From: Terriglobales bacterium
GTDB taxonomy: Bacteria; Acidobacteriota; Terriglobia; Terriglobales; Acidobacteriaceae
Assembly: GCA_025462725.1 (NCBI GenBank)
Contig: JAOAPE010000010.1
Span: 186,001-250,000, forward strand
Direction: 5' to 3'
DNA length: 64,000 nt
The notes below the pieces were generated by a model, which worked only from the letters and a program-made list of their open reading frames with translations, was not told where the DNA came from and did not search any database. Shown here in pieces: positions 216 to 63,846 of this stretch (its first letter is position 1; every line of letters begins with the position of its first letter). The position numbers and the translations under genes are program-made.

Positions 216-3005
216 GTGCCTCCCGTCATTGCAGCAATCGCTGCTCTTGTCCATGTAATCGGCGTCGGGCTTGCTGCCGGTGGCTGGACTGCATTCCTGA
301 CTGCGACAGCATTGTCGGTCGGGAGTTCGCTGGTGCTCGGCGGGATCACAAAGCTCATCAAGGGTTCGACGAATCTCAGTCTGCAGAGCGACACAGCGAA
401 CCACAGCGTCACCATCAAACAGGCGGCCGGATATCGGCGGTTCCGGTACGGCAAGGGTGACGATGGCGGCACGCTCACCTATGCAGCGTCCAGCGGCGCG
501 AATTCTGAATACTTCCACATGGTGGTCACTTACTGGGCCCACCAGATCAAAGCGATCGACGCGATCATCTTCGATGACTATCAGCTCGTGCTCGATGGCG
601 CTGGCAATGAGATCGGCAAGTATGCGGGCGGATTCTGTTTCGTCGAGATGAAGCTTGGCGCACCGGGTGAGCCGGCGTTCCCTGGACTCGTTGCCGATAC
701 GGCCGGGCTGGGCGCTGCAGCCTGGACGGCCAGCTGCAGGCAGGATGGCTTCGCTTCCATCCACGTCAAGCTCAAACTGGACCCGAGTAAATTCCCGAAT
801 GGCGTACCGCAAGCGGTCAAGGTGGTAGCCCGCTGCAAGCTGGTAAAGGACCCGCGCACCGGCGTCACAGATTACACCGACAACCTCGCGTGTTGCATCC
901 GCGACTACGCGATCGACCCTATCTTCGGAATGGGTTTCGACGAAGCCACAGAGATCAACGACACAACCTTCATCGCAGCCGCGAACCTTGCCGATGAGAA
1001 TGTTCCCCAGCTCGCCGGCGGCACCAAGCATCGCTATACCTGCAACGGCGGTTCCGACACGAGCAAGAAACCGGGCGATGTCCTGAAGGGGATGCTGGCG
1101 AACGAAGCCAATGGCAAGAGCGCATGGATCGCGGGGCAGCTGAACCTTTGGCTGGGCTCGTACCGCGCGCCGGAACTATCTTTCAATGATGACGACCTCC
1201 GCGGCGCACCGCAGCTGACCGGCCGCACCAGCCGCAGTGAACTCTATAACGCGGTCCGCGGCATCTTCGTATCGCCCGAATCTGGCTACCAGCCCACTGA
1301 CTTTCCTTCCGTTGTGAACCCGGCGTATGTGGCGGACGACAGCGGATTCCCGGGCTGCGCGAACCGATCGTACTGGCTGACTCCGATTGCCTACGCCGTC
1401 AACGACGCTGTCTTTAATAAAGGTTTTGCATACGTCTGCACGAATGCCCACGTCAGCGGCGCTCTTACCGAGCCGGGTGCCGGTGCTAACTGGGCGATGG
1501 TTTGGGTGCTCTGTCCGGAACTCCACTGGAAGGATGTGGAGTACGCGTTCGTCAACAACGCTTCGGAGTGCCAGCGATTGGCAAAGATGGACCTCGAGTA
1601 TGGCCGCCGCATGTTCACGGTGATGAACCCGATGAAGTTGAAGGGCTACCAGGTGCAACCGCCGGAGACGCTGCAGCTGACTCAACAAGCCATGAACTGG
1701 GTGAACAAGACTTTCGAGATGCGGCTCAGTTCCCTGTTAATGGATGGGATGTACCTCGGCGTGAACCATACGCTGAAGGAAGTCGACAGTGGAATCTGGA
1801 GTTGGAGCATCCTCGACGAGCGCCTTATGGGCGCGTTCCCTTCTGTAGTGACGGCGGACCCAAGCGTTGTAGCGGCGGTCACCGGACTCACTCTGGTGAG
1901 CGGATCGGCGACTGTGGTCACCCGCGGCGATGGCGTGAAGCTCAGCCGTATCCGTGTTACTTGGAACCAGCCCATCGACCAATTCGTTCTAGCAGGCGGG
2001 AAGATCTTCGTCGAGTTCAAGAAGCATGCTGACCCGAACTGGATTCCTGGAGACGAAGTAGACGGCGCCGCGCAGGAATCCTATCTCTCCGGCGTTGACG
2101 ACAACGTTGCGTATGACGTCCGGGTGCGATGCCGTAACAGTGCCGGCGTCTATGGCGCTTATGTCTCCGCGTTGAATCACACAGTCAGTCCTGTTACTTC
2201 TCACATCACGCAAGGCGCTTTGACCTCATCCACGATCGGGAACAAGAACTCTACGATCGTCGGCGGTGTCAATCCCCTCTCCGCGGCGGACGTGGGCGCG
2301 AGTGTCACGGTGTCGATCGCGGCCTTCCAGCTGCAGTTCGGATTCGGCCGAGTCTCTTACAACGCCAGCTCGATAGCGGGACTGAGCTACAACACCGGCT
2401 ATTTCATTTACTGCGTCGATGCCTTGCTCGCCGGCGGCGCTGTCACTTACCTCGCGACGACCAGCTTCGATGTCGTTGTGGCCAATGTGAACAACGTCTA
2501 TATCGGAAGCGTCGGAACCCCGGCTTCTGGAGGCAGCGGAACTGGAGGCGGCGGTGAACCGGGCGGATGCTGCTGCATCGACCAGTGGTTCAGTGAGCAC
2601 GGCGTTATCGAAGTGGCCGAGGTTGGAGACCTCTTCGACTGCTACGTGGGCGACGGTGAGGTTGAACCGCGCATGCTCGAGCAGATGGGACCTCCTAAGT
2701 TTGTGCCATGCGTAGCGCTGGTCGCGGAAAACGGCGCGGAGTGGCGAGGCTCTAGCGATACGACAGTCCATCCGAAAGACTCAGAGCCTTGCTTTGCTGA
2801 GCACGCGCATCGATCGCAAATGAAGACATACCTCCTTCAGCAGGACGGAAGCTGGAAGCTCGAGTGGTCACCCATACGAGTGATTCCTTTGGGCATGCGA
2901 TGGGTGCGGCAAGGCTACATCGGCAAGAGTGAATTCGCGGCCGGAGTGGATTGGAAGAAGCGAATGTTCACGCACAACTCGGTTCCACCACCGGACCCGA
3001 AATAG
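216..3005 (+). CDS. Phage tail hub / tip attachment protein (gpJ-like), with degenerate Hint-like C terminus
   Basis: This is a 929-residue structural protein expected at the tip of a siphovirus tail, where it joins the tail tube to receptor-binding parts. The N terminus is hydrophobic and glycine-rich. Residues about 70-440 match the gpJ-type hub, including RYRRFRYGKGDD-like and DYAIDPIFGMG-like segments. A fibronectin-III-like stretch follows at about 550-650. A Gly/Ser linker then leads to a Cys-rich tail with CCCIDQW near residue 785. I place the start at GTG 216 because GGAGG lies at 204-208 and the previous stop is at 214. An in-frame GTG at 198 would overlap the upstream gene. The last 145 residues resemble a decayed Hint fold (see findings). 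Confidence 0.8.
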   Translation: MPPVIAAIAALVHVIGVGLAAGGWTAFLTATALSVGSSLVLGGITKLIKGSTNLSLQSDTANHSVTIKQAAGYRRFRYGKGDDGGTLTYAASSGANSEYFHMVVTYWAHQIKAIDAIIFDDYQLVLDGAGNEIGKYAGGFCFVEMKLGAPGEPAFPGLVADTAGLGAAAWTASCRQDGFASIHVKLKLDPSKFPNGVPQAVKVVARCKLVKDPRTGVTDYTDNLACCIRDYAIDPIFGMGFDEATEINDTTFIAAANLADENVPQLAGGTKHRYTCNGGSDTSKKPGDVLKGMLANEANGKSAWIAGQLNLWLGSYRAPELSFNDDDLRGAPQLTGRTSRSELYNAVRGIFVSPESGYQPTDFPSVVNPAYVADDSGFPGCANRSYWLTPIAYAVNDAVFNKGFAYVCTNAHVSGALTEPGAGANWAMVWVLCPELHWKDVEYAFVNNASECQRLAKMDLEYGRRMFTVMNPMKLKGYQVQPPETLQLTQQAMNWVNKTFEMRLSSLLMDGMYLGVNHTLKEVDSGIWSWSILDERLMGAFPSVVTADPSVVAAVTGLTLVSGSATVVTRGDGVKLSRIRVTWNQPIDQFVLAGGKIFVEFKKHADPNWIPGDEVDGAAQESYLSGVDDNVAYDVRVRCRNSAGVYGAYVSALNHTVSPVTSHITQGALTSSTIGNKNSTIVGGVNPLSAADVGASVTVSIAAFQLQFGFGRVSYNASSIAGLSYNTGYFIYCVDALLAGGAVTYLATTSFDVVVANVNNVYIGSVGTPASGGSGTGGGGEPGGCCCIDQWFSEHGVIEVAEVGDLFDCYVGDGEVEPRMLEQMGPPKFVPCVALVAENGAEWRGSSDTTVHPKDSEPCFAEHAHRSQMKTYLLQQDGSWKLEWSPIRVIPLGMRWVRQGYIGKSEFAAGVDWKKRMFTHNSVPPPDPK

Positions 3006-3019
3006 AAACGGAGACAGCT

Positions 3020-3400
3020 ATGGAAGTTAAGCATCGAGACGATATAGCCAACCTGAAAGACGGACAGCGCGCATTTGAGATCGAGGGCGGCGACGTCATC
3101 GTTGTCGAGATCACGCAAAGAGCCGTCGAGGAAAATCCACACAACATCACTTCGGAGCATCACGTTGCAGTCCAGGTTCGGGCGTGGAAGGTGAACCCGG
3201 ATGGCACCGTCGCCATAGATAGCCGCGGCAAGGAACTGGAGATCCCGAAGAGGGTCGAGTCGATCGTGACGTCGGCGCTGGCGGAAGGAACGGTTGACCT
3301 CGACAACCAGCTCGTCGATTACTCGCTTGCTGCTTTGGTGCGCGCGAAGAACTGGCTGCATGTGAAGGCGGCGATGGAGAAGATCCCGCTGAGTTCCTAG
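3020..3400 (+). CDS. Hypothetical phage protein (126 aa)
   Basis: This small soluble acidic protein sits between the tail hub and the lysis genes. It begins MEVKHRDDIANLKDG and shows alternating strand-like segments followed by a helix near the C terminus (LDNQLVDYSLAALVRAKNW). ATG 3020 follows a GGAGA at 3010-3014. An upstream in-frame extension overlapping the hub gene is less likely. I do not recognise the family. Position and strand make it part of the prophage late operon, so a minor tail or head-tail accessory role is possible but unproven. Confidence 0.6.
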   Translation: MEVKHRDDIANLKDGQRAFEIEGGDVIVVEITQRAVEENPHNITSEHHVAVQVRAWKVNPDGTVAIDSRGKELEIPKRVESIVTSALAEGTVDLDNQLVDYSLAALVRAKNWLHVKAAMEKIPLSS

Positions 3401-3441
3401 TTATTGGGCTCCCTCGTGGAAGTTTACTTCTGGAGTGATTG

Positions 3442-3783
3442 ATGGCAACTGGAACCAAGACGGCTCACGACACTGACGACCCTCTGTTGGAAGTGATCCT
3501 GGAGGAGATGCGCGCTGTCCGAACAAAGCTTGACGCTTTGACGGAAGCCCAAGGCAAGACCGCGCTGAAGGTCGAGCTGATGCACACGCGCTCGATCGCG
3601 GTCTTCGGTTCGCTCGGCAGTAACGGTGGCGCATTCGGCCGGCTGAAGACAAAGGTTGACCGGCACGAGAAATACATCAACGGTGCAGTCACGCTGTTGG
3701 TGGCCATCCCGTTTATCGGTGGAGTGCTGGCATGGGCAATCGACCATCTAGCACCGGGCACGATTCGGGGGATAGGAAAGTAA
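3442..3783 (+). CDS. Small phage membrane protein, XhlA/holin-accessory-like
   Basis: A 113-residue protein with a helical, coiled-coil-prone N half (LLEVILEEMRAVRTKLDAL) and one hydrophobic segment near the C terminus (GAVTLLVAIPFIGGVLAWAI). This helix-then-TM layout is shared by small lysis-associated proteins such as the XhlA type. ATG 3442 follows TGGAG at 3431-3435. It is followed after 2 nt by the DUF5675 gene, so the two are probably translated together. The lysis role is inferred from layout and neighbours, not from a diagnostic motif. Confidence 0.55.
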   Translation: MATGTKTAHDTDDPLLEVILEEMRAVRTKLDALTEAQGKTALKVELMHTRSIAVFGSLGSNGGAFGRLKTKVDRHEKYINGAVTLLVAIPFIGGVLAWAIDHLAPGTIRGIGK

Positions 3784-3785
3784 AA

Positions 3786-4220
3786 ATGGAACTTCATGTA
3801 TTGCGAGAGGCGTCGACCGCGAAGTCGACGATCGGCGAACTGACAATCAACGGTGTGCATGAATGCTGGACGCTGGAAGACGTCGAGCGGCACCAAAAGA
3901 TCTTCGGCCAGACTGCCATTCCATGCGGCCGGTTCAAGTTGGCGATGCATGACTCGCCACATTTCAAGCGCATCGTGCCAATGCTGCTCGCTGTTCCTAA
4001 CTTTCTGTATGTCCTCATGCATTGGGGCAACACAGCTGCAGACACTGAAGGTTGTTTGTTGGTGGGCAGAACCAAGAGCGCTGACTTTATCGGTCAATCC
4101 AAGTCGGCCTTCCTCGCGCTCTTCGCAAAGATCGAGGCGGCTATGGCTGCGGGCGAAGAAGTATGGATCACGATCGAAGACAAAGCGGGCGTTCCGCTCG
4201 CAGAAAAGGCGGCAGCATAA
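3786..4220 (+). CDS. DUF5675 family protein, candidate phage lysis enzyme
   Basis: A 144-residue protein matching DUF5675 as I know it. It has an N-terminal strand region with CWTLEDVE, the segment TAIPCGRFKL, and the signature MHWGNTAADTEGCLLVG at about residues 78-94. The spacing of His and Cys in HWGNTAADTEGC recalls the HGx(n)SHGC active site of YkuD L,D-transpeptidases, which act on peptidoglycan peptides. No lysozyme, amidase or transglycosylase is visible in this late region, so this is the best candidate endolysin. Start ATG 3786 is 2 nt after the preceding stop. An upstream extension would overlap the membrane protein gene. Family confidence is good, enzymatic role is inference. Confidence 0.8.
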   Translation: MELHVLREASTAKSTIGELTINGVHECWTLEDVERHQKIFGQTAIPCGRFKLAMHDSPHFKRIVPMLLAVPNFLYVLMHWGNTAADTEGCLLVGRTKSADFIGQSKSAFLALFAKIEAAMAAGEEVWITIEDKAGVPLAEKAAA

Positions 4221-4222
4221 TT

Positions 4223-4834
4223 ATGGATTTACACCACAAGATATACGCGGGACTGATATCGGCGGTGCTAGTGATCGGCGGTGCTGGATTCTGTGTCTCG
4301 CAATATGTAGCGCACGCGAAAGAGGAATCCGCGCGCGACGCGATAATCGCAGTTACAGAGAAGCAGAACACGGAACTGCTCAAAGCCAATGGCGACCTGA
4401 AGAAGGACATTGAGCAGATCAAGTCGGCTACTGCTGTGCAGACGTCGAAGCTTGAAGCGGTGAAGTCGCAGCTTGGAGAGAAGGCGACGCCGGCGCAGGT
4501 GGAGAAGGCTGTCCGCGATTACACACCGCTCCAGGGGGTGAAGGTTTCGCAGGATCCGGACGCGCCGTCGACGCTGAGTCAGAAAGACGCGGTATTGCAG
4601 GCGCAGTTCGGGATCTCGTGCCGGCAGTGTGAGTTGAATCGGGACGCTCTCTCTGCCGAGAACGCGAAGCAGCTCGAGCAGCTGAAGAACGATGACAAGG
4701 TAATCGCCGGACTCAAGACGGAGCGCGACGTTGCGATCAAAGCGGCGAAGGGCGGAAGTTGGGTGCGGCGCGTGGGGCGGGCAGCGAAGTACATCGCCAT
4801 CGGTGCGGCAATCGGATACGGGCTACATCACTAA
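4223..4834 (+). CDS. Spanin-like phage protein: N-terminal TM plus long coiled coil
   Basis: A 203-residue protein with a TM helix at about residues 8-27 (IYAGLISAVLVIGGAGFCVS), followed by about 140 residues rich in Lys, Glu, Gln and Ala in heptad style, and a short hydrophobic C terminus (KYIAIGAAIGYGLHH). This is the general architecture of an inner-membrane spanin (Rz-like), which links inner and outer membranes during lysis. A CRQC motif lies mid-protein. ATG 4223 is 2 nt past the DUF5675 stop. No separate Rz1-like lipoprotein is evident, and the hydrophobic C terminus could instead make it a unimolecular membrane-spanning protein. Confidence 0.55.
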   Translation: MDLHHKIYAGLISAVLVIGGAGFCVSQYVAHAKEESARDAIIAVTEKQNTELLKANGDLKKDIEQIKSATAVQTSKLEAVKSQLGEKATPAQVEKAVRDYTPLQGVKVSQDPDAPSTLSQKDAVLQAQFGISCRQCELNRDALSAENAKQLEQLKNDDKVIAGLKTERDVAIKAAKGGSWVRRVGRAAKYIAIGAAIGYGLHH

Positions 4835-4849
4835 ACGGAGGAAGAGACA

Positions 4850-5215
4850 ATGCTGAACTGGTTGGGTTACATCCTTGGTCAATTGTTGCACTTCTGGTTG
4901 AAGGCCGGCGCGTCTGTGGCCAGCCCGGCCAGCACGGTGCAAACCTATGGTGCTTACTTCCGCAAGAACGGCGCGGTGCTTGCCGTCCGGTTCTTCGCGG
5001 CGAGTTGCATCTTCGTGATCTGGACGGAAGGCGGCGCTGCCCTCTTCGGCGAAGGCTTCCTGCCGAGCTTGGCGGGAATGAGTGTGCTGGCAAAAGGCGC
5101 GGTGTGCGGTCTCATCGGTTTGGCGATGGACAGTATCCTCGACAAGGTCATGGTGCGTTTGCCGTGGCTGCAGAATGAGATCCCGCCGGCACCGAACGGC
5201 GTGGGGCACGACTGA
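4850..5215 (+). CDS. Holin-like phage membrane protein
   Basis: A 121-residue protein with two or three hydrophobic segments: residues about 1-20, AVRFFAASCIFVIW, and GAVCGLIGLAMDSI. It ends in a short hydrophilic tail. A strong Shine-Dalgarno GGAGGAAG at 4837-4844 precedes ATG 4850. It is the last rightward gene of the prophage late operon and is followed by a terminator hairpin. Size, membrane topology and place beside the endolysin candidate suggest a holin. No specific holin family was recognised. Confidence 0.55.
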   Translation: MLNWLGYILGQLLHFWLKAGASVASPASTVQTYGAYFRKNGAVLAVRFFAASCIFVIWTEGGAALFGEGFLPSLAGMSVLAKGAVCGLIGLAMDSILDKVMVRLPWLQNEIPPAPNGVGHD

Positions 5216-5257
5216 GGAAGATATATAGATATATAAAGGTTGTGCAGGCGTCTGCAA

Positions 5258-5291
5258 AGCCGTCCTCTTTTGGGGCGGCTCTTCTATTTCT
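5258..5291 (+). terminator. Rho-independent terminator of the prophage late operon
   Basis: AGCCGTCC and GGGCGGCT form an 8-bp stem (one G-T pair) around a 7-nt loop, followed by the pyrimidine-rich CTTCTATTTC. It lies between the last rightward lysis gene and the convergent leftward block. Confidence 0.65.
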
Positions 5292-5294
5292 GCT

Positions 5295-5915
5295 TCAAAG
5301 GGTACGACCGGAACCCGTGAGGCGCTTCAGTGTAGCCTGGCGCCACTCACGGCACTTGATGGAGTCGATGGTGACCAGCCCACTGCTTAGTTCCGTGGAG
5401 ATGCTCTTGAATGAGACTTCGAGATTACTGAACGCCCACCTCGCTACGATCATGGGATACACCGTTCCGTAGGAACCTTGCACGGTTGAGAGCTGCTTCG
5501 TGGTTGGTTCGCCGTACTTCTCTATCAATGACTGCAGTACTTTTTCGCCGTCGCGTACACCCGCAGTGTTAAACCCGATTCCTTCCAAATTACCGTCCAT
5601 GACTTGCGCTGAGATGTCGAGGCCGCTTGAGAGAGCCGGCTGTTCGGCGGAAGGAAACTGAATCAATACCGTCGCCGTGTATACGGGTGCCACTTTAGTG
5701 CGAAGGAGCCCGGTTCGCTTGTAGCAAGGTGCGCCGGAACTTCCGGAATACGTATACCGTTCCCTTGCGACCTGCATTGTTGGGCATTCGGCCAAGTTGA
5801 AAGGCTTGCCAATCTGGAAACCGAACACAGATAGATCTAACTGAGGTTTGTCTTGTGCCTGAATCGCGCAGAGGAGGGATAGGCAGGCGAAGATGACACG
5901 AACCATCGATTTCAT
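5295..5915 (-). CDS. Secreted hypothetical protein in prophage-end block
   Basis: A 207-residue protein starting MKSMVRVIFACLSLLCAIQAQ, a signal peptide with a likely cleavage after AIQA. The mature part contains FGFQIGKPFNLAECP and a GxxDGEKVLQSLIEKYGEP region. The latter resembles the small domain seen in many secreted proteobacterial and acidobacterial proteins that compare sequence pairs around LxxKYG. ATG 5915 is chosen because AGGAG at 5920-5924 precedes it. A longer upstream start would lack both the signal peptide position and the SD. It is the last gene of a leftward block between the phage lysis genes and the tRNA remnant. Function unknown. Confidence 0.65.
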   Translation of the reverse strand: MKSMVRVIFACLSLLCAIQAQDKPQLDLSVFGFQIGKPFNLAECPTMQVARERYTYSGSSGAPCYKRTGLLRTKVAPVYTATVLIQFPSAEQPALSSGLDISAQVMDGNLEGIGFNTAGVRDGEKVLQSLIEKYGEPTTKQLSTVQGSYGTVYPMIVARWAFSNLEVSFKSISTELSSGLVTIDSIKCREWRQATLKRLTGSGRTL

Positions 5916-61830: not shown

Positions 61831-61836
61831 ATGGTG

Positions 61837-62033
61837 CGCTTCGCGCGTTAAACCCGCCTTCGGCAGATTGGAAGGAATCGCGTTGGAACTGTTACCCAGC
61901 GTTGAAACGCTGGGCTAATATCAGTCGCCCGCGATGCGGGCTGAACCCTTTTTCCTGCTGTTACCTCAGCGGCTAAAGCCGATTTTGACGACGACTAAAT
62001 GCAGGCCTAAAGGCTTGCGCCACCCGTGTTGAA
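61837..62033. repeat. Multi-hairpin intergenic repeat, copy 1
   Basis: Aligns with 63411-63628 from GCGCTTCGCGCGTTAAACC to GCGCCACCCGTG. Hairpins in order: GCGC-TTC-GCGC, CCCAGCGT/ACGCTGGG (61895-61914), GCCCGC/GCGGGC, CGGC-TAAA-GCCG, and GCAGGCC/GGCTTGC. No ORF. See findings for the compensatory changes. Confidence 0.8.
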
Positions 62034-62042
62034 TATCAAATT

Positions 62043-62609
62043 TCATTTTTCCTTTTCCGGATAGCAGGCGGCGACTTTGGCGCGGATTCTTGTGCCCCAG
62101 GGATCGGGGTCGATGGGAGATTCGTCGTCGGTGGTCTGGGCGGCGGAGTTGTAGGCTTGTCCGAAGGAGGTGTGCTTGAGATTCAGCGCGGCGATCTGGA
62201 GAGTGTAGAGGAGTCGTCCGGCGACGAGAGGATTGATCTGCTGGGTGGCGATGGCGCGATAGATGTCCGTCAGGCAGACCTGGATGGAGTTGGCATCTTC
62301 GAGCGCGGGAAGGTGAAGTCCGGAGAAGAGCTCGGCAGCGTTGTCGTCAAACGTGAGTTTGGAGCCGACGATCTCTTGCGAGACCATGTAATGCTCTCCG
62401 GTGGCGATATTGGCACGGCGTTGACTGAGATTGTTGAGGATGCGCTTCTGGCGGTCGCGATCGCGCTTGTGAAAGTAACAGAACGCGTCGCCGGTGATGG
62501 CGGGCGATTGGCAGAAGGTTCCGTTGGCGCGGACGTGGTCGCAGAGAAAAATCTCAATTTCTTTGTTGGTTTCAGTCTCGGTGGTTTCGGTTTGGTTGAT
62601 GTCGTCCAT
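62043..62609 (-). CDS. Hypothetical protein with N-terminal zinc-binding Cys/His motif
   Basis: A 188-residue protein. FLCDHVRANGTFCQSPAITGDAFCYFHKR (residues about 21-48) is a Cys-x(9)-Cys-x(10)-Cys-xx-His pattern that probably binds zinc. The rest is helical (LEDANSIQVCLTDIYRAI, PLVAGRLLYTLQIAALNL). Members with the same CxxPA..G..FCYFH core recur in Acidobacteria, in my recollection, often in several copies per genome. GAGGAG precedes ATG 62609. The leader has a poly-G tract on the coding strand (see 62634-62647). Confidence 0.7.
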   Translation of the reverse strand: MDDINQTETTETETNKEIEIFLCDHVRANGTFCQSPAITGDAFCYFHKRDRDRQKRILNNLSQRRANIATGEHYMVSQEIVGSKLTFDDNAAELFSGLHLPALEDANSIQVCLTDIYRAIATQQINPLVAGRLLYTLQIAALNLKHTSFGQAYNSAAQTTDDESPIDPDPWGTRIRAKVAACYPEKEK

Positions 62610-62627
62610 GGTGTCTCCTCTTTGCTT

Positions 62628-62739
62628 TTAGTACCCCCCCCCCCCCCGCATTTTTTCAAAATATTGAAAGTAGAGGGGTTAGCGGGGCGTGGTTGGTAAA
62701 ATATTGATTACAGGTGAGTTAAAGGTCAAAATATTGATT
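62628..62739 (-). promoter_or_regulatory. Possible promoter with homopolymeric spacer and three motif copies
   Basis: Leftward, TTGAAA (62659-62654) and TACTAA (62633-62628) could be -35 and -10 boxes separated by 20 nt, of which 14 are G. The motif AAAATATTGA occurs on the plus strand at 62658, 62698 and 62728, spaced 40 and 30 nt, so on one face of the helix. Confidence 0.4.
62634..62647. repeat. Run of 14 C
   Basis: Uninterrupted poly-C, 25-38 nt upstream of the zinc-motif gene start. Its exact length in the read data may be uncertain. Confidence 0.85.
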
Positions 62740-62837
62740 CCATTCGGGTTAGTTGTATAACTATATGCAAAGCATATGCGTACAATTATTCTATTTAGGC
62801 ATGGAGTTGTCAAGGAGATTTTTGTGTGGAAAAGCGA

Positions 62838-62975
62838 TTTCACCGCGGAGGCGCGGAGGAAGGCAGGGCTTCACCGCAAAGGGCGCAAAGGTGCGCAAAG
62901 GTAATGAGGTGAGGGGAATCGGAGTGAAGCACATTTTCATCGCGGAGAGGCGGAGGCGCGGAGGAGACAAACGGT
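62838..62975. repeat. Degenerate GCGGAGG-type tandem repeats
   Basis: Imperfect units built on CACCGCGGAGGCGCGGAGGA: TTCACCGCGGAGGCGCGGAGG, TTCACCGCAAAGGGCGCAAAGG and CATCGCGGAGAGGCGGAGG. No ORF here is convincing. This family of intergenic repeats is widespread in soil bacteria. Confidence 0.65.
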
Positions 62976-62978
62976 TTG

Positions 62979-63353
62979 TTAGAGTGTGCCGCCGACCGAA
63001 GGCTCGTTTTTAGGCCGGGTATCCAGCCAGTCGAGAAAGATGGCGAGATATGAGATGAGTATCGTGGAGACCAATCCATATCCGATGCGATCGTCGGCAA
63101 GGGTTCCCATATCGTTCAGCATAAGCGTAAGGCCGAAGAGGATGAATGCGCCGCCGGTCAGGATGAATGCCCGCCGAGTGACGGGCCTGTCCTCTAATGC
63201 TTTCGGTTTTGCAGGTAACATCACCAACATTGCGGTGGGCGGGAAATGATATTCCCATGTGCCGCCAAGCAACCGTAGAGACGGGAGAAATGCGCAGAGC
63301 AGGTAGTAGATTCCGATAGTCAGCGCGATGATGGCACAACCAAGCTGTAGCAT
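62979..63353 (-). CDS. Small membrane hypothetical protein
   Basis: A 124-residue protein with hydrophobic segments at CAIIALTIGIYYLLCAFL, FILTGGAFILFGLTLML and GLVSTILISYLAIFLDWL. A conserved-looking TWEYHFPP lies in the first loop. No family recognised. It ends close to the repeats at 62975. Confidence 0.65.
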   Translation of the reverse strand: MLQLGCAIIALTIGIYYLLCAFLPSLRLLGGTWEYHFPPTAMLVMLPAKPKALEDRPVTRRAFILTGGAFILFGLTLMLNDMGTLADDRIGYGLVSTILISYLAIFLDWLDTRPKNEPSVGGTL

Positions 63354-63410
63354 TCAGCGAGATTGTATCCGGAAGATTGGGATGAAGAATGCAATTGTTT
63401 TAGAGGCGAG

Positions 63411-63628
63411 GCGCTTCGCGCGTTAAACCCGCCGTGGGCAGAGCGGAAGGGCAGCGCGTTTTATCTGTACCCGCGGCTTACGCCGTGGGCTATTCACTTA
63501 CGCCTGCTCTGCAGGCTGAGTCCCTTCATAGTTTCTATGATTCTGAATCAAACCCTTACCTCAGCGGCTAAAGCCGATTTTAATGACGACTAAATGCAGG
63601 CCTGAATGCCTGCGCCACCCGTGCTGAG
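63411..63628. repeat. Multi-hairpin intergenic repeat, copy 2
   Basis: Second copy of the element at 61837-62033. Its hairpins are GCGC-TTC-GCGC, CCCGCGGC/GCCGTGGG, GCCTGC/GCAGGC, CGGC-TAAA-GCCG and GCAGGC/GCCTGC. A longer insertion (CATAGTTTCTATG, itself a small hairpin) lies between the second and third. Confidence 0.8.
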
Positions 63629-63846
63629 CTAATGCTACTGAAATCCCCGCGTTAGCTTCGCGAACGTGGGGCACCCAATTCTCAACTCCCACCCGGCAAA
63701 CCACCCACCCTAACAAGCTAGGGTGGGGTACCCGGCAGTCATAGGGAAGGCTGACTTGCCCCGTAAGCAAGCGACTGCATTCCCGGAGCTGTCGACCACA
63801 CTGGACCATGACAAGTAGATGCCGCCAGTGTTTGGAGCTTGCCGCC
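63629..63846. repeat. Further hairpin-rich intergenic DNA
   Basis: CCCCGCGTT/AACGTGGGG (63645-63671) and CCCACCCTA/TAGGGTGGG (63704-63727) are perfect or near-perfect stems. GGGGTACCC lies next to the second. No gene seen between here and the SnoaL-like gene end. Confidence 0.6.

Follow-up and report, generated by a model that had tools for sequence, protein, structure and literature searches.

Near the end of a 64,000-nucleotide stretch of the genome of a Terriglobales bacterium (contig JAOAPE010000010.1 of assembly GCA_025462725.1; hereafter the window), a hairpin repeat is present in two copies, at positions 61836-62032 and 63411-63627. Our analysis indicates that each copy is very probably made up of adjacent solo DNA ends of the repetitive extragenic palindromic (REP) type, which belong to two distinct HUH (Y1) systems of single-strand transposition. 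The first half of the repeat, with hairpins H1, H2, and H3, would be an end orphaned from the unit of an IS200-like TnpA (subclass 1.2), and the second half, termed module C, would be an end orphaned from that of a REP-associated tyrosine transposase (RAYT). A first-pass annotation of the window had offered two alternatives, namely selection for structure in an RNA or in single-stranded DNA that serves as the substrate of a REP-type transposase; our results favor the second, since each half is associated with HUH transposases.

Inspection of the sequence confirmed that five hairpins follow one another in matching order in both copies; however, the repeat, which had been annotated as one element, consists of two elements with different transposases. 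Stems 2 and 3 together correspond to Acido-Lenti-1 (RF01687), a named Rfam family of the small RNA (sRNA) type that the annotation had missed. Copy 1 passes the gathering score of this family (40.7 bits against 37 bits), and copy 2 misses it (32.3 bits) yet is significant. Stems 4 and 5, which form module C, matched no Rfam family even at E-values up to 1, apart from a chance-level match of another family with an overlap of nine bases. A single element holding all five hairpins was considered and abandoned because the halves occur apart in the genome. RF01687 has 29 copies in the genome at E ≤ 0.001, 17 of them above the cut-off, and most of the 29 contain H1, an upstream hairpin that is absent from the Rfam model. 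A model of H1-H3 (R1) was trained on an alignment of 24 of the 29 copies, with the five of the window's type left out, and module C was represented by a second model (R2). At four places, R1 and R2 elements are on the same strand and no more than 50 bp apart: the two window copies, in the order R1 then R2, and C56:642186-642355 and C75:258872-259037, in the order R2 then R1.

The genome contains six Y1 transposase genes (PF01797). All three that encode a TnpA of subclass 1.2 (C33, C51, and C56:79916) are located between oppositely oriented Acido-Lenti-1 elements, and none of the other three has an adjoining R1 match. The three TnpA proteins carry the HuH, WQ, and Y...Q..HH motifs that are the signature of subclass 1.2; two of them score above the cut-off of the NCBIfam family NF033573 (IS200/IS605 transposase), the third reaching 46.7 bits against 55, and their relatives of solved structure are TnpA proteins of IS200/IS605.

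The same arrangement was found at the loci of related transposases. The best 80 of at least 572 relatives of the three TnpA proteins (loci L072-L151) have the Y...Q..HH motif in every case and HuH in 79 cases. Counting the elements within 300 bp of the gene, and using 199 of the 219 R1 matches (the 20 weakest, with E about 0.003 and above, were left out), we found the nearest elements on the minus strand to the left and on the plus strand to the right (-/+) at 48 loci, and an R1 element on at least one side at 71. With the exception of locus L086, 151 of 178 R1 matches fell in the approximately 47 kb beside the genes and 27 in the approximately 373 kb elsewhere. The independent Rfam model, applied at its gathering score, matched in 30 of the 80 loci; again without L086, 45 of its 55 matches lay within 300 bp of the TnpA gene, and their orientation was minus in 19 and plus in 5 cases on the left and plus in 19 and minus in 2 cases on the right. 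The 11 loci at which RF01687 is present at both ends in the -/+ orientation are labeled in their records as Acidobacteriota, Planctomycetota, Verrucomicrobiota, and Hydrogenedentota; by the same labels, the R1 -/+ loci also span Calditrichota, Cloacimonadota, Bacteroidota, and Magasanikbacteria, although single phylum cases may be misassigned because most of the records are metagenome-assembled genomes. At L086 (Desulfococcaceae), 32 Acido-Lenti-1 matches, all on one strand and often approximately 69 bases apart, form a tandem array around a subclass 1.2 TnpA gene (positions 2382-5587), and this array was left out of the RF01687 orientation counts.

In a second set of 30 loci from the same class, one of them from the genome under study, R1 was present in the -/+ orientation on both sides at 24 and on at least one side at 28. 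A survey of 151 genomes of the class detected R1 in 45 of the 51 genomes with a subclass 1.2 TnpA and in 30 of the 100 without (odds ratio 17.5, a value that ignores kinship among the genomes); the co-occurrence of R1 with a RAYT gene was weaker (odds ratio 2.2, p 0.03).

Module C is associated with a different transposase. The Y1 gene at C56:718378, with the motif YIHQNP, encodes a protein above the cut-off of the NCBIfam family NF047646 (REP-associated tyrosine transposase), and relatives of this protein at E ≤ 1e-20 are present in 44 of the 151 class genomes. The counts of R2 at 30 RAYT loci, which include one from the genome under study, were based on 66 of 72 matches: R2 elements in the -/+ orientation flanked the gene on both sides at 22 loci, six had R2 on one side only, and two had the -/- arrangement, so that all 30 carried R2 on at least one side and none lacked it. 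R1 had no match at E ≤ 0.003 at these 30 loci, and R2 had two matches at E ≤ 0.003 at the 80 TnpA 1.2 loci, neither of them at a gene end. This double dissociation of R1 and R2 by transposase is our strongest single result.

The hairpins of both families covary. In the 24 aligned copies of the first half, 97.7% of the pairs were standard, as against 81.2% after shuffling, and both sides changed in 9 of 16 pairs; the covariation score was 0.447 as against 0.152, a value reached by none of 500 shuffles, and the number of pair types, one of the five measures used, was not above that of the shuffles (89 of 500 reached it). The 11 copies of module C from outside the window had 97.5% standard pairs as against 84.6% after shuffling (0 of 500), and both sides differed among the copies in 5 of their 11 pairs. 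An alignment of 120 R1 elements from 59 of the 80 loci, which leans toward the R1 model because it was fitted to it, had 98.3% of its cells paired as against 72.6% after shuffling and changes on both sides in 15 of 16 pairs; 54 elements of module C had 98.5% of their cells paired and such changes in 10 of 11 pairs. The selection on structure that the first-pass annotation proposed is thus borne out across many copies of both families: the stem changes are correlated in each of the four sets (24, 11, 120, and 54 copies), and further copies are numerous in the genome, at least 37 for R1 and at least 34 for R2, both window copies being among the matches in each case. These and the other whole-genome copy numbers are lower bounds, up to 150 candidates having been scored per genome (27 in the survey of 151 genomes). 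The single window copies fold only modestly better than shuffled sequences (z-scores of -1.95 and -2.06), and we did not use these scores as an argument for structure.

All parts of the window copies lie on the plus strand. In copy 1, an upstream module (61836-61893; a GCGC hairpin and a CCGCCTTCGGCAG hairpin) occupies the place of H1 of other Acido-Lenti-1 elements; it is followed by the Acido-Lenti-1 core (61895-61942), with H2 at 61895-61914, the conserved CTA at 61915-61917, and H3 at 61927-61941, and by module C (61961-62027), with hairpins at 61970-61981 and 62001-62018. Copy 2 has the same layout, with the upstream module at 63411-63469, the core at 63470-63517 (H2 at 63470-63489 and H3 at 63502-63516), and module C at 63556-63622 (hairpins at 63565-63576 and 63596-63613). 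Both copies were outside the training of the models; R1 matched copy 1 at 61843-61943 with 33.2 bits and copy 2 at 63418-63518 with 32.7 bits, and R2 matched the two modules C with 68.1 and 66.6 bits, respectively. A partial third copy is located beyond the window edge (C75:250274-250378).

The blocks that flank the core are 90% identical between the copies on the upstream side (40 nt) and 92% identical on the downstream side (72 nt); however, the H2-H3 core is identical at only 29 of 48 positions. Stem 1 (GCGCTTCGCGC) and stem 4 (CGGCTAAAGCCG) do not differ between the copies and are therefore uninformative on covariation. In stem 2, where most pairs were said to differ with pairing kept, the pairing is indeed kept (with one G-T), but half of the pairs differ (4 of 8): by eye, three are altered on both arms and one changes from A-T to G-T. 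Stem 3 changes on both arms as reported, at a single pair (by eye). The joint change claimed for the last stem is absent, as its 5' arm (GCAGGCC) is identical and the 3' arm alone differs (GGCTTGC in copy 1 and TGCCTGC in copy 2), which by eye leaves a G-T pair in copy 1 and a C/T mismatch beside the loop in copy 2.

The linkers of the core help to explain these differences. When sorted by eye, most copies in the genome fall into groups: CTAAATAATTCC occurs with the ends of the C33 TnpA gene, CTAAGCGCTTCGC with those of C56, CTAATWTCA with those of C51, and CTATTCCCTT forms a group whose TnpA was not seen in this assembly. Across 38 loci, linker sharing was 0.82 between the two ends of one gene and 0.62 between loci, a difference that none of 5000 shuffles reached. 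The linker of copy 1 (CTAATATCA) is of the type of the C51 TnpA subfamily, and that of copy 2 (CTATTCACTT) is of the subfamily for which the assembly showed no TnpA. Hence a core of the C51 type and a core of the orphan type are located inside nearly identical frames, and the low identity of the cores follows from their membership in different subfamilies. The difference between the window copies is, as far as the sequences suggest, best read as the exchange of a whole core rather than as stepwise mutation. Compensatory evolution of one element between the two copies, as first annotated, does not fit a core that appears to have been swapped between subfamilies or a last stem that shows no covariation.

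The foot of H2 has a feature known from transposon ends. The three bases directly 3' of H2 are C, T, and A in 98, 98, and 94%, respectively, of the aligned R1 elements, which places TAG at the 5' foot of H2 on the opposite strand. The guide bases of IS200/IS605 ends and of REPs are found in the same place, at the 5' foot of the hairpin, in the passages of Quentin et al. (2018; PMC6006769) that treat them. In both window copies, the opposite strand of module C reads GTGG one base away from the foot; this position varies over the 54 aligned elements, which have no uniform guide. We infer from these features that the strand opposite to that in Rfam would become single-stranded, for example as the lagging-strand template, and that H2 would then fold; TnpA would bind the folded H2, using the conserved TAG at the 5' foot as the guide, and by cutting and rejoining near the ends could move either the unit with its gene or a gene-less inverted doublet (a REPIN). 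Solo ends left over from this process would make up the dispersed intergenic hairpins and would gather in clusters such as the one in the window.

Could Acido-Lenti-1 instead be a genuine small or cis-acting RNA that is only incidentally located at TnpA ends, for example as a regulator in the untranslated region of the transposase? In the part of the original description that concerns it (Weinberg et al. 2010; PMC2864571), it is given as a probable RNA, without a cis-regulatory role, that occurs in Acidobacteria and Lentisphaerae. The Rfam type agrees with an RNA, the covariation fits an RNA equally well, and hairpins beside tnpA could regulate the tnpA mRNA. The solo copies also lean one way. 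Among 24 of the 29 RF01687 copies (the five at TnpA ends were left out), 20 could be classified by their neighboring genes: 10 were antisense to both neighbors, 3 were sense, 5 lay between convergent and 2 between divergent genes; the other four were inside open reading frames (ORFs) as predicted by a crude ORF caller. For 21 of the 34 R2 copies, the corresponding numbers were 8 antisense, 2 sense, 8 convergent, 1 divergent, and 2 inside ORFs of the same caller. On the other hand, the elements at the left and right ends of a gene are mostly on opposite strands, so that no single transcript can carry the Rfam strand of both. Half of the 20 solo copies are antisense to both neighbors and only 3 are sense, and therefore the Rfam strand, which is seldom the strand of the neighboring mRNA, is unlikely to be part of neighboring mRNAs. 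The copy numbers also argue against an RNA: R1 at E ≤ 1e-5 was found in 19 of the 21 genomes reached through the 80 loci, with 3 to 149 copies in each, and in two it had no match. We consider an RNA very improbable as the primary role; the orientation of the solo copies leaves room for an effect of the non-Rfam strand.

Gene-less doublets of Acido-Lenti-1 are oriented in the same way as the transposase unit and in this resemble REPINs: among the 150 matches listed, 19 pairs of R1 elements lay within 100 bp, in seven genomes, and all 19 were -/+. In genome G162, four doublets have no evident similarity outside their outer hairpins, and the unit that spread there therefore looks like the doublet itself. 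Genome G155 contains four near-identical units of 257 bp (L313-L316) with a doublet inside, and these units have TA edges and imperfect inverted repeats of approximately 25 bp (by eye); since such edges and repeats suggest a different mover, we rejected the units as proof of TnpA-driven movement. Two genomes of one genus, G047 and G078, contain a TnpA unit at the matching place with 87% identity, G047 being approximately 2.4 kb longer on one side, and a gene-less doublet adjoins the unit of G047. An aligned stretch of G047 contains three solo copies; G078 lacks two of them and has a copy in the other orientation at the site of the third. A palindromic repeat of approximately 75 bp in G047 (L255, 11263-11334) is likewise absent at the matching place in G078, and similar copies occur elsewhere in that genome.

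The G155 units raise the possibility that the copies are moved by other elements, such as TA-target miniature inverted-repeat transposable elements or segmental duplications, with TnpA as a passenger, and the flanking modules that the window copies share are what local duplication would give. Such movers leave unexplained the G162 doublets, without evident similarity beyond their outer hairpins, and the inverted pairs at TnpA genes across several phyla, and we judge this explanation to be very unlikely. The least credible alternative, to which we give only a slight chance, is that the elements are bidirectional terminators or mRNA-stabilizing hairpins at gene ends with a secondary link to transposases: only a small number of copies are located between divergent genes (2 of 20 for Acido-Lenti-1 and 1 of 19 for module C), and REPs elsewhere are reported in such roles in sections of PMC6006769, yet each family tracks one transposase lineage and scarcely crosses over, the linkers match between the ends of one gene, and the order of the doublets is fixed, none of which a terminator needs, so that a terminator role is perhaps a side effect in solo copies. 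These alternatives are not mutually exclusive, and the probabilities that we attach to them need not sum to one.

Several observations weigh against the interpretation of the repeat as two REP-type transposase ends. Five of the 24 copies used to train R1 are themselves TnpA ends of the same genome. R1 is absent near the gene at 9 of the 80 loci and at 2 of the 30 loci of the second set; at 12 of the 80, the nearest R1 elements are misoriented (4 -/-, 4 +/+, 3 with a plus element on the left only, and 1 +/-), and 11 further loci have the expected orientation on one side only. RF01687 is near the gene at only 28 of the 80 loci, is -/+ at both ends at 11, and has no match in the last 20. In the survey of the class, 30 of the 100 genomes in which no TnpA 1.2 was detected contain R1, 6 of the 51 with TnpA 1.2 lack R1 matches, and kinship bears on the odds ratio as stated above. 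The foot of Acido-Lenti-1 is NTAG; the rule for described REPs, GTAG or GTGG at 0-2 nt 5' of the hairpin, does not apply to it, because the base before TAG is mostly A (51%) and not G. The lean of the solo copies toward one orientation would also allow an RNA role on the non-Rfam strand, and the G155 doublets are located in an element that another transposase may move. Finally, a clean empty site with matching joins was not found at any of the three sites compared between G047 and G078, where the exact joins are unreadable because the spacers around the sites differ.

The window copies are separated by a 188-aa gene with a Cys/His-rich N-terminus (ORF at 62043-62609, minus strand), a neighbor outside the elements whose product matched no Pfam family above the cut-off and no NCBIfam family. 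We rejected this gene as a part of the elements, as its relatives occur only beside the RAYT gene of L069 (frame-shifted, 41-49% identical) and, with weaker similarity, at L047; no others were found at E ≤ 1e-4 among the loci examined. Upstream of the gene, a poly-C run and three AAAATATTGA boxes are located at 62637-62760. AT-rich boxes of a similar kind, accompanied by runs of poly-C or poly-G, are present near TnpA loci L066, L067, and L016, and near L044 (by eye), the exact AAAATATTGA box being found only at L067, L016, and L044. GCGGAGGCGCGGAGGA repeats extend over 62845-62965; short repeats of this kind are known from many genomes. After copy 2, hairpins of a third REP-like family, which end in GGGGCACCC or GGGGTACCC, are located at 63646-63677 and 63704-63733. 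This family has many sites in the genome, and GGGTGCCCC and GGGGCACCC flank the Y1 gene of L070. The region around the copies is a mosaic of repeat ends.

Compared with the Rfam description of Acido-Lenti-1, the window copies share its two hairpins and the CUA linker, and the elements described here add the upstream H1 in most copies, the inverted bracketing of a transposase, and the doublets. Our literature searches, which covered the texts of open-licence PMC papers, turned up no paper that connects Acido-Lenti-1 with a transposase. The closest known systems are the REPs, REPtrons, and REPINs of the class-2 TnpA-REP (RAYT) proteins, with which our elements share a single Y1 gene with hairpins at its two ends, dispersed solo copies, inverted doublets, a low gene copy number, and guide-like bases at the foot of the hairpin. 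The transposase of module C scores as a RAYT in NCBIfam, and the inverted pair around its gene (on both sides at 22 of 30 loci) is the arrangement of a REPtron. Acido-Lenti-1 has the dispersed gene-less doublets of fixed orientation that characterize REPINs (19 of 19 among the matches listed), but it differs in having an IS200-like transposase (Y...Q..HH), three hairpins per element, and NTAG at the foot.

The passages of PMC6006769 on TnpAY1 subclass 1.2 list no REP for it, describe it as generally without the typical end structures of IS200, and place it mostly in Cyanobacteria and Bacteroidetes. The TnpA proteins studied here resemble the subclass as presented there in length (148), in the DHxH, WQ, and Y...Q..HH motifs, and in low copy number, whereas many of our loci, in Acidobacteriota, Planctomycetota, Verrucomicrobiota, and other phyla, have paired hairpin elements. 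IS200/IS605 elements (IS608 and ISDra2) have a transposase of the same superfamily and hairpins at both ends, and the combination of such a TnpA with hairpin-forming ends was found here (two of three proteins above the NF033573 cut-off and paired ends at 48 of 80 loci). Near-identical copies of the whole unit were not found in this genome: the second and third TnpA proteins are 47 and 40% identical to the first, and so the three, being mutually distant, are not recent copies. In contrast to IS200/IS605, it is mainly the gene-less end element that is dispersed.

The TIRYTs and TIRtrons of Acidobacteria, as the relevant text of PMC3733652 describes them, likewise consist of Y1 genes between inverted repeats, and some of these repeats are also dispersed in an acidobacterial genome. 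Many TIRYT repeats share the motif GGGGWSAS according to that text, and the corresponding part of PMC6006769 assigns 20 of the 26 TIRYTs to subclass 2.1. We set our families apart from the TIRYT repeats by these text descriptions, and some of the families may overlap. At L071 (C71:24410), a Y1 gene is surrounded by CACAGCCG..CGGCTGTG repeats and is perhaps of the TIRYT type as outlined in PMC3733652.

On balance, we lean toward a broader conclusion, with somewhat better than even confidence: Acido-Lenti-1 would be not primarily an RNA but a tag of single-stranded DNA for recognition by an IS200-like transposase lineage, and would thus constitute a second REP/REPIN system outside the class-2 RAYTs, spread over at least eight phyla by record labels, with each TnpA paralogue matched one-to-one to a repeat subfamily through the linker and with swaps of whole cores between subfamilies in composite repeats such as those of the window. 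If this is true, an Rfam family of unassigned function would gain a concrete role at the DNA level, and its sRNA annotations would need to be changed. A transposase subclass described without REPs would gain its repeats, and REP-type systems would exist on both main branches of the Y1 transposases. The matched pairs of TnpA and repeat, three of them in one genome, would be ready substrates for tests of hairpin recognition.

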